From: Candidatus Gastranaerophilales bacterium
Lineage (GTDB): Bacteria; Cyanobacteriota; Vampirovibrionia; Gastranaerophilales; Gastranaerophilaceae
Direction of reading: 5' to 3'
Assembly: GCA_944324175.1 (NCBI GenBank)
Contig: CALUVH010000018.1
Coordinates: forward strand, 1-39,806
Length of the DNA: 39,806 nt
Position 1 is the first letter of the stretch. Each line of letters begins with the position of its first letter. A model generated the notes under the pieces. It was not told where the DNA came from. It saw only the letters and a program-made list of their open reading frames with translations, and did no database searches. The translations under genes were made by a program, and so were the position numbers. Shown piece after piece: positions 18,048 through 21,473 of the stretch.

Positions 18048-18455
18048 TTACTGGACCCAAAACTGAGCCATGGTAAGTACTTTTGTCGGATTGTCTTTTG
18101 AGTAAATTTTCATAACATAAGTACCTTTTTCATTTATCACAATATAATCATCGTAATAGTACATTTCTTCATCTTTAAGTCTTACTGTATTGCCATAAAA
18201 CATTTTATATCCCAGTCTTTCATTTGCACCATCTTTTTTAATTATTTGAATGTAGACATACCTTGATTTTATTGGTTTTGGAATAATTACAAGATAATAA
18301 ATTCTCATTCCGGTGGCAAAAGTATTTGTTAAATTCATTACATTTTGTGTAGTGATTGGGGCGTTATTGAAAAGTATTGACGGTTTTACTCTGTCGCAAG
18401 CAGAGCTAAATAACATTAAAAAAACAAATCCTAAAATTATAAGATATTTTTTCAT
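18048..18455 (-). CDS. Small putative lipoprotein
   Basis: The 135-residue product begins MKKYLIILGFVFLMLFSSAC, a type II signal with cleavage before C20 (SSA|C; the -3 residue is Ser instead of the usual Leu). The rest is beta-rich with many tyrosines (RLKDEEMYYYDDYIVINE) and resembles a small immunoglobulin-like or accessory lipoprotein domain, family unknown. Its ATG follows the TPR gene's TAA without a gap (TAAATG), so translation is probably coupled and the two products may work together at the envelope. Confidence 0.75.
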   Translation of the reverse strand: MKKYLIILGFVFLMLFSSACDRVKPSILFNNAPITTQNVMNLTNTFATGMRIYYLVIIPKPIKSRYVYIQIIKKDGANERLGYKMFYGNTVRLKDEEMYYYDDYIVINEKGTYVMKIYSKDNPTKVLTMAQFWVQ

Positions 18456-20504
18456 TTATTTTTCCAATACTTTTAATTTTTCTTTTACAGCCTTTTTAGT
18501 AGTTTCATCGTTGCTGTGTTCCAAAAATAATTTGTAATTTTGAATAGCGTTTATATAGTCTTTTTCATTCTCATAGGCCAATGCAAGAGCATAGTATGCA
18601 TAACCGTAATTTGCGTCGATTGAGACAACTTTTTTGAATGCATCAATTGCACCTGCAAGGTTGTTTTCATCAGCATAAATCAGACCCAAATTGAACCAGC
18701 CGTCCTTGTAATCAGGGTTAACAAAAATGGCTTTTTTGTAAAAACTTATTGCGTTGGTGTTATCATTTTTGAGTTTGTATACGTAACCAAGCTTAAATAA
18801 TGTTTGTTCGTCACTGGGACGGATTTTTAGTGCTTCTTTATAGTTAACGATACATTCATCATATTTTTTGTTTTTCAGGTTTTCATCGCCAAGCTCAATA
18901 AGGTCTTTATGTTTTTCAGAATCCAACTCTGATACTTGATTGGTAATGGTATCACTTACATTTATAGCAGGTAGTTCACCACCGTTTTTGACAAGTTGCT
19001 CATTATCTTCCATTAGTATATTGTTTTCGTTGTTATATTTAGCAGCAATAAACTCAGCATATTCATTACTATATTGGGCATTTGCAGGATCTATCGCAAT
19101 CGCCTTTTCATACATTTCAGCGGCTTTGTCTGACATATTGCAATTACGATACGTTTTTGCAAGTAAATAATACCCAAAACTTTCTTCGCTGCCATTCGAT
19201 ACTGCTTGCTCAAGATATGTTGCTGCAGTTGTGTAATCCTGTGCATCATAACAAATTTGTCCTTGTGAAATTAATGCGACGACAAGATTTTTTTTCACTT
19301 CCGGATTTTGTTTGACCTGTAAAAGATCGTTATACAATGCTATAGCGTCAGGATAATCTTTGAGGGCATGAAGTGCGAGTGCCTTGTTTAATTTTACATC
19401 ATAGTTATCTTTTTTGACTAAAAGAATTTCATCGTAATATTTAATGGCATTTTTATAATCTTTTTTAAGGTGATAACATTGGGCAAGGTCTTCTTTTAAA
19501 TCAAAATCACGACAATGTTTTGCTATTGCAATTTCATAATTTTCAATTGCTTTGTCAATGTTATTAAGTCTTTTGTAAACAATTCCCAAATTTTTGTATG
19601 CAAGGGCATTATCAGGAAAATTTTTAATGTAAATATTATATTGTTCTACTGCTTCATTATTTTTACCCATATCTGCAAGTAAGTTTGCATAATCAAGTCT
19701 TACTGCATGTAATTCCGGTTTTTGTCTGAAAATTTCTTGATATTGAGCATAAGCCAAATCATTATCTTCCAATTCCTGATATGCAAGAGCAAGTATTGAA
19801 CGTGAGTTAAGATCTTCAGGATTTTTTTCAATATGCTTTGAAAGTACTGAGGATGATCTTTCATAATCCTTTACACAAAAAAGTGCGTAACCGTATTTAT
19901 CCAAGTCATTAAATCCATTCGGGTCGGCAGAATATAGTTTGTCATATTCTTCGACTGACTTTTGAGCATTTCCTGTAAGTAAATATGAAGCAGCAAGGCT
20001 TTCTCGTGCTTCTTTATGCTGTGAGTAAGTACTCAAAAATTTGTTATAAGTATCAGTTGCATTTTTGTAATCTTTCAATTGATATTGAGCGTTGGCAATA
20101 TTTAGGTAATTATATTTGTATTCAGGGAAAAGTATCATAGCTTTGTTATATGAGTCCAAGGCATTTTTATAATCACCTTTATGTTCGTATATACTTCCCA
20201 TGCTTATGTAAAGGAAGGCATCTGAGGGTTTTAATTCGACAACTTTTATATATGTCGCGAGAGCTTTGTCATATTCGCCGAGTTCAGTGTATGCACCTGC
20301 AAGTTTTATGTATAATTGCGGTTCATTCCCTGATAATACAATAGCTTTTTCCAGTGCTGCTGCTGCTGATTTGAAATCTTGTTTGTATTCATAAGTACAA
20401 GCTTGCTGGTATAGTGAATTCGCTTCAGGAGACATGTAAGCACTAGCAGGAATCCCACTTAGCATAATTGAAAGTATAGCTGATGTTAATAACTGTTTTT
20501 TAAT
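18456..20504 (-). CDS. Exported TPR-repeat protein, probable AUU start
   Basis: About 682 residues, almost entirely tetratricopeptide repeats (at least a dozen 34-residue units with the AYxxLGxxYxxxGDYxxA pattern, e.g. FLYISMGSIYEHKGDYKNAL). A linker of about 50 acidic residues precedes the last three repeats. From the first ATG (20465) there is no ribosome binding site, but the frame stays open upstream for 17 codons to a TAG. An ATT at 20504 has GAGGG (20513-20517) eight bases before it, and starting there gives (M)KKQLLTSAILSIMLSGIPASA, a textbook Sec signal peptide. The TPR part is certain; the AUU start is inference. Likely a periplasmic scaffold paired with the lipoprotein. Confidence 0.85.
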   Translation of the reverse strand: MKKQLLTSAILSIMLSGIPASAYMSPEANSLYQQACTYEYKQDFKSAAAALEKAIVLSGNEPQLYIKLAGAYTELGEYDKALATYIKVVELKPSDAFLYISMGSIYEHKGDYKNALDSYNKAMILFPEYKYNYLNIANAQYQLKDYKNATDTYNKFLSTYSQHKEARESLAASYLLTGNAQKSVEEYDKLYSADPNGFNDLDKYGYALFCVKDYERSSSVLSKHIEKNPEDLNSRSILALAYQELEDNDLAYAQYQEIFRQKPELHAVRLDYANLLADMGKNNEAVEQYNIYIKNFPDNALAYKNLGIVYKRLNNIDKAIENYEIAIAKHCRDFDLKEDLAQCYHLKKDYKNAIKYYDEILLVKKDNYDVKLNKALALHALKDYPDAIALYNDLLQVKQNPEVKKNLVVALISQGQICYDAQDYTTAATYLEQAVSNGSEESFGYYLLAKTYRNCNMSDKAAEMYEKAIAIDPANAQYSNEYAEFIAAKYNNENNILMEDNEQLVKNGGELPAINVSDTITNQVSELDSEKHKDLIELGDENLKNKKYDECIVNYKEALKIRPSDEQTLFKLGYVYKLKNDNTNAISFYKKAIFVNPDYKDGWFNLGLIYADENNLAGAIDAFKKVVSIDANYGYAYYALALAYENEKDYINAIQNYKLFLEHSNDETTKKAVKEKLKVLEK

Positions 20505-20552
20505 TGTCCTAACCCTCTAATTAAGTATACTTTATAACATATTAGCAAAAAA

Positions 20553-21473
20553 CTAGATTTGTGTAAAGCTGTTTGAATAAATTTTCTTATCTAACAGCAC
20601 TTCTACTGTTTTAATTACATTATATTGCTCAATGGAATTTTTATCAAATTCAATATCTTCCAACTCTCCAAACTCAGAAATCATTTTTGCTAAATTTAAG
20701 TACAAATTGTCAATTTCATTTTGAGGAGAATTACAATCAAGCATTTTAAAAATTCTGATGAGTTCAGTGTCTGATGCGTCGATAATTGCAGCATCAAGTC
20801 CGGCTCCATAGGCAAGTACTGCAAATATCCTGTTTATCAAAGGTCGTAATTCACTCGGTGAACCGTTTGAAATGTTTGAAAGACCAATGAGTGTTTTAAC
20901 AGGAGGGTCAAAGCTCTCCTTTATCATCTGTATTGTGTGTAATGCTTCTTTACTTTGTGATTGGTCAACTGTGATTGGTAAGATAAGAGGATCGAAGTAT
21001 AATTTGTCGTTATTAATACCTTTTTCTAAACAGTTTTCATAAATTTCAAAAGCTATTTCCAATCTGCCATCGGCAGTTTTTGGAATACCGGTCTCTTTTC
21101 CCATAGTGAGTGCAACAAGGTTACAATCATACTCTGCTGCCAGTGCAGTCATTGCCGAAAATCTTGGCTCATCTTTGCTGGTACTATTTATAATGGCATT
21201 ACTTGCATTTTTACAAATATTCAATCCACTACGCATTTCATCTGCGTTGGTTGTATCAAATGAAATTTTTAAGTCGGATTCTTTTTCGACTAAATTACAC
21301 AACCAAGGTAGTACTCCAGATAAATCACCTTTAGCTGGTCCGACATTTAAGTCGACATAATCCATTTGTTTTTGAAGTTTAATCAAATTGTTAACAAATG
21401 TTTCATCACGATTTATAAGTGCATTACGCAAAGAGTTAGATATAATGTGGATATTTTCGCCAATTAATTTCAT
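20553..21473 (-). CDS. Pterin-binding methyltransferase-like protein (AcsE/MtgA family)
   Basis: A DHPS-like TIM barrel of 306 residues. It starts MKLIGENIHIIS and shows DLNVGPAK, LKISFDTTN, NAIINSTSKDE and TLIGLSNISNGSP, the pattern of methyltetrahydrofolate:corrinoid/iron-sulfur protein methyltransferases (AcsE) and of the pterin domain of MetH. A role in methyl transfer from methyl-tetrahydrofolate is likely, but no corrinoid protein or acetyl-CoA synthase gene is nearby, so the partner is unknown. The start at 21473 replaces a longer frame to 21896 that has no family match. No Shine-Dalgarno; TGTTATAAT lies at -15 to -7, predicting a leaderless message. Confidence 0.82.
   Translation of the reverse strand: MKLIGENIHIISNSLRNALINRDETFVNNLIKLQKQMDYVDLNVGPAKGDLSGVLPWLCNLVEKESDLKISFDTTNADEMRSGLNICKNASNAIINSTSKDEPRFSAMTALAAEYDCNLVALTMGKETGIPKTADGRLEIAFEIYENCLEKGINNDKLYFDPLILPITVDQSQSKEALHTIQMIKESFDPPVKTLIGLSNISNGSPSELRPLINRIFAVLAYGAGLDAAIIDASDTELIRIFKMLDCNSPQNEIDNLYLNLAKMISEFGELEDIEFDKNSIEQYNVIKTVEVLLDKKIYSNSFTQI

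Follow-up and report, generated by a model that had tools for sequence, protein, structure and literature searches.

An AUU start codon, supported by orthologue comparison, for a secreted TPR protein gene of Candidatus Gastranaerophilales

Introduction

AUU is very rare as a start codon, and conserved AUU-type starts are, to our knowledge, described for very few bacterial genes. A non-AUG start is normal for infC in many bacteria. In Staphylococcus aureus, output from the starts of cvfC1 (AUU) and ccpN (AUA) in poor medium is about 10% of that from AUG (PMC13009471), and in Streptomyces the GTC start of sigR is repressed by IF3 (PMC5472188). For Escherichia coli pcnB, the account of Binns and Masters (2002) as cited in PMC13009471 is that an AUU start limits expression. 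A literature search returned no paper on rare starts in Gastranaerophilales.

Here we describe a gene for a secreted TPR protein from this order whose start resembles those of the genes above. The window, by which we mean the whole 39,806-nt stretch of DNA analyzed, is contig C18 of a 1.68-Mb MAG assembly.

Results

Start region of the TPR gene

The longest ORF of the TPR frame that begins with ATG, GTG or TTG starts at position 20465, which is 13 codons downstream of an ATT and midway through a hydrophobic signal peptide. The codons after the ATT (20504-20502) are AAA AAA CAG TTA TTA ACA TCA GCT ATA CTT TCA ATT, followed by the ATG. Read from the ATT, the frame gives (M)KKQLLTSAILSIMLSGIPASA and then YMSPEAN..., with the signal peptide whole; read from the ATG, it keeps just MLSGIPASA of that peptide. 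No Shine-Dalgarno (SD) match precedes the ATG at 20465 (sd score 0), and no ATG, GTG or TTG lies ahead of the signal peptide in the window's TPR frame. A sequence-only reading of the window had proposed that the first ATG splits a signal peptide and has no ribosome binding site, and that the only plausible upstream start is the ATT, in frame after a TAG and with GAGGG 8 nt before it. Both proposals stood up to inspection, down to the coordinates, the spacing and the TAG.

The SD of the window matches the consensus over 4 nt (GAGG) and is weaker than in most relatives. RNA structure over the TPR start did not exceed chance (z 0.23). Profile searches with the TPR protein and a PDB search returned generic TPR matches only, and a search against an anti-phage library gave no match. 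The features of the locus are collected in Table 1.

Table 1. Features of the TPR locus in the window.
Feature	Position	Strand	Details and basis
Secreted TPR protein gene	18456..20504	minus	682 aa plus stop; Pfam TPR families, whole open frame
Proposed AUU start codon, read as fMet	20502..20504	minus	Orthologue comparison
Shine-Dalgarno GAGGG, 8 nt before ATT	20513..20517	minus	Window sequence; SD at 7-9 nt in most class-A orthologues
In-frame TAG, closing the frame 5 codons upstream of ATT	20517..20519	minus	TTG at this position in congeners
Predicted signal peptide IKKQLLTSAILSIMLSGIPASA, first residue read as Met	20439..20504	minus	Cut site inferred from A-x-A pattern
-35-like hexamer TTTACA	20562..20567	minus	Within last codons of upstream gene; same bases in most orthologous loci
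-10-like hexamer TAATAT, 17-nt spacer	20539..20544	minus	TAAAAT/TAATAT in relatives
Pterin-binding methyltransferase-like gene, upstream neighbor	20553..21473	minus	Same gene upstream in 59/80 loci
Lipoprotein gene	18048..18455	minus	ATG directly after TPR TAA, no SD

Start codon across orthologues

A scan of public genomes placed the relatives of the window in Candidatus Gastranaerophilales. The comparison was made on genome sequences, those of the relatives being nearly all MAGs. We scored 139 distinct orthologues from the order, each anchored where the conserved mature protein begins. Class A comprises orthologues with no in-frame ATG, GTG or TTG that would give a whole signal peptide, and was defined without reference to the SD; class B has a canonical codon without an SD together with a near-cognate codon with one; and class C has a canonical start. 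Sixty-one orthologues fell into class A, 55 into class C and 23 into the ambiguous class B.

In class A, which consists of the window and 60 further distinct orthologues, the aligned codon was ATT in 51, ATA in 4, ATC in 2 and ACG in 4, all one base away from AUG; these counts include 12 loci reassigned by hand where the automatic choice had taken a neighboring codon or none, namely six to ATT (L055, L164, L120, L125, L126 and L135), four to ACG (L186, L187, L285 and L076) and two from ATC to ATT (L124 and L128), the last two being a judgement call from the alignment to their sisters. The full conserved protein is thus present without a possible ATG, GTG or TTG start, and relatives hold a near-cognate codon at a fixed SD distance, mostly 7-9 nt. 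All five same-genus orthologues (80-84% identity) read ATT AAA AA(A/G) CAG TTA TTA from the aligned codon onward and have GAGGG or GAGGA ahead of it; in other lineages the aligned position or its vicinity holds ATG, GTG or TTG. Dozens of genomes share the ATT at this position, which is more than chance would give. ATT accounts for 51 of the 57 forced Ile-type start codons, whereas elsewhere in these genes its share of Ile codons is 53% (1141 ATT, 672 ATA and 327 ATC); since the sequences are related and not independent, the higher share at the start is only suggestive.

Aligning orthologues was the check that the sequence-only reading had proposed, and the result favors AUU: the 61 without a canonical signal-peptide start all carry AUU, AUA, AUC or ACG. 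Neither of the outcomes that it had set against itself appeared. A start at the internal Met, with the signal peptide missing, is not what the orthologues show, and since many MAGs have the same codon, the ATT cannot be put down to a consensus error in one genome. On this comparison, AUU at 20504 is strongly supported as the translation start of the TPR gene.

In one clade (g10 and allies), ACG directly after AGGAGG is the apparent TPR start (L186, L187, L285, L076 and L286; also L069, L071 and L074). A class-A orthologue from a different family of the order (L293, genome G128) has ATT with a 6-nt SD match, through either shared ancestry or independent origin.

Gene neighborhood and the downstream lipoprotein gene

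The promoter-like hexamers of Table 1 would place the transcript start at about 20532 and leave a 5′ UTR of about 28 nt. A second promoter-like element, TTGATA-17-TATAAT (11/12, near-perfect), lies at 20619-20647 on the minus strand, inside the 3′ end of the methyltransferase-like gene.

Downstream, the lipoprotein gene was found in all 80 TPR loci (80/80). It matched no named family in Pfam or NCBIfam. Its start lies at most 5 nt from the TPR stop, or overlaps it, in 74 of 79 loci, and an SD of at least 4 nt precedes it in 1 of 79. The junction takes the forms ATGA, TAATG and TAAATG, a fixed two-gene unit. This is the layout of translational coupling between two genes, in which the second start abuts or overlaps the first stop and has no SD of its own. 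Coupling to the TPR gene is the probable route of lipoprotein translation, and the AUU would then probably limit both proteins, although a lipoprotein start without an SD does not in itself imply coupling.

Proposed mechanism and selection on the start

We propose that translation of the TPR protein starts at the AUU (20504), guided by the GAGGG 8 nt upstream and with fMet as the first residue. Poor initiation at AUU would keep output low and the SD would compensate in part, as the known behavior of AUU and the SD trend described below suggest. That the gene has an AUU start with reduced output is, in our view, highly probable. Ribosomes finishing the TPR gene probably restart at the lipoprotein gene, so that one AUU would set the amounts of both envelope proteins, a step that draws on the gene layout conserved in relatives. 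The TPR gene does not encode IF3, and so is not infC itself, and its start codon, not being ATG, GTG or TTG, belongs to the class that IF3 rejects (IF3 preference from PMC5472188). Because IF3 rejects AUU, AUA, AUC and ACG, output would be expected to go down when there is much IF3 for each free 30S subunit and up when IF3 is scarce.

A regulatory meaning of the AUU start, which the sequence-only reading had called usual for such starts, is plausible and has indirect support. Analogy with infC and sigR makes IF3 control of the TPR start the likeliest mechanism, and we give it roughly even chances. The fuller picture is one in which a two-gene envelope unit, made up of a secreted TPR protein and a lipoprotein, is under IF3 discrimination, its near-cognate start being kept, with drift among AUU, AUA, AUC and ACG, across most of the family and at least once outside it, and in which the status of IF3 and the ribosomes sets the amount of a cell-envelope system. 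We advance this picture tentatively, as falling slightly short of an even chance.

The main alternative is that the AUU is a start codon without regulatory meaning, a weak start being tolerated because little of the protein is needed. The drift of the codon among ATT, ATA, ATC and ACG fits this view, as does the presence of ATG, GTG or TTG in several lineages, which implies that regulation, if any, is dispensable in some of them and that the weak start is not essential everywhere. Yet AUG is one substitution away and the non-AUG start is kept across most of the family, at about 50% protein identity, which argues for selection. The ATT excess among forced Ile-type codons, in sequences that are related, also speaks against tolerance of a weak start as the whole account, and so does SD strength. 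An SD of at least 5 nt is found in 51/61 non-AUG and 6/55 canonical orthologues, a comparison to be read with the caveat that the non-AUG classes were recognized partly by their SD, although class A itself was not. When pairs that are phylogenetically independent are compared, the stronger SD goes with the non-AUG start in about 8 of the 9 informative pairs (sign test, p ~0.04). A stronger SD where the codon is weak is expected from selection on output, and the trend suggests such selection, though part of it may be a recognition effect. On a maximum-likelihood tree built from 120 of the orthologues, switches between a canonical and a non-canonical start are strongly clustered; they number 10 with ambiguous rows omitted or taken as non-canonical, and 20 if these are taken as canonical. 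Taken over the order, the weak start looks to have been retained by selection, probably as a brake on the TPR protein and its lipoprotein partner, and we consider an AUU without regulatory meaning unlikely, though still the most serious competitor.

Alternative start sites and initiation in the rest of the genome

Were the real start a canonical codon further upstream, the ATT would be an internal Ile codon. The five congeners do carry an in-frame TTG five codons upstream, at the position of the window's TAG, and some genera have an ATG 2-7 codons upstream (L043, L114, L118 and L160). The TTG has no SD of its own, however, and in the window the TAG refutes this reading unless the stop is read through; the loss of TTG there shows that it is not needed. 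In addition, the 61 class-A orthologues have no canonical codon to offer, many of them having an in-frame stop 4-5 codons upstream, and the -10-like element in several orthologues allows a leader of only ~15-20 nt. We rejected the upstream TTG as a start given the TAG in the window and the absence of a canonical codon in many relatives, and regard an upstream start in general as very improbable.

We also considered whether AUU starts might be general in these bacteria through an altered IF3 or initiator tRNA. In favor of this, infC in the same genomes is also non-AUG: its start codon is AUA, AUU or AUC, preceded by an AAGGAG-like motif at a distance of mostly 7-8 nt, and 31 of 36 infC loci have no canonical codon upstream. 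The infC loci examined were L106, L327 (G000, contig C6, about 84187), L102-L107 and L238-L267. In these genomes infC shows the arrangement SD, 8 nt and AUA; in the window's genome it lies on a contig other than that of the TPR gene. This shared geometry shows that near-cognate starts are usable here. Specificity was screened in 754 ORFs over 0.82 Mb, about half of the window's genome. A relaxed screen for near-cognate starts gave 146 matches, mostly chance-like, and a strict screen gave 15 candidates, of which only infC (AUA) and the TPR gene were convincing, so initiation is not generally relaxed. IF3 is present in the genome with a good score, and the sole tRNA-Met found in the sampled half has a normal CAT anticodon. 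We regard general use of AUU as very improbable.

Leaderless initiation at the 20465 ATG had been named in the sequence-only reading as a competitor, on account of a TATACT ending 7 nt before it. The hexamer is indeed present (20478-20473), but it lies within signal-peptide codons and is absent from congeners. Such a start would destroy the signal peptide, and in many orthologues the stretch ahead of the mature domain contains no Met. Differences upstream of 20465 number 42, 18 and 44 at codon positions 1, 2 and 3, which fits coding sequence, and we find leaderless initiation hardly credible. Finally, a sequencing or consensus error or a decayed gene has a negligible probability, even though the window comes from a MAG in 38 contigs: many MAGs from several hosts, assembled independently, have the same codon, and the 682-codon frame is intact and shares 80-84% identity with congeners.

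Discussion

With its AUU start, the TPR gene is, judged from the orthologues, a new and deeply conserved addition to the small known class of near-cognate-start genes. Gene callers limited to ATG, GTG and TTG would cut the TPR protein inside or after its signal peptide and hide its export, and such callers would likewise misplace the infC start throughout the family. Across the family, this one gene starts with AUU, AUA, AUC, ACG, GUG, UUG or AUG, with SD strength changing alongside, and the series forms a natural data set that could be used to ask how selection keeps a weak start and what that start controls.

Among the known systems, infC, the IF3 gene, starts at AUU, AUA or AUC under autocontrol and shares with the TPR gene a rare near-cognate codon, a properly spaced SD and deep conservation. 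It differs in its product, since a secreted TPR protein in place of IF3 would give no direct feedback loop, and the SD in the window is weaker. The pcnB gene, as far as the secondary account of it goes, is like the TPR gene an ordinary gene whose AUU limits expression; we know of no signal peptide or coupled gene for pcnB, in which it differs. The conserved non-canonical starts of cvfC1 and ccpN, which combine a strong SD with low output (PMC13009471), are likewise comparable, but these genes encode small or regulatory proteins of Bacillota, whereas the TPR gene encodes an envelope protein and its codon varies among AUU, AUA, AUC and ACG. The sigR gene differs in codon, protein and phylum, IF3 control has been shown for it and is proposed here for the TPR gene, and its partner rsrA can be translated independently (PMC5472188), which sets that pair apart from the TPR gene and its lipoprotein. 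Like the TPR gene, sigR has a rare start conserved within its group, is the first of two genes (sigR-rsrA, coupled) and is misread by gene callers (PMC5472188).
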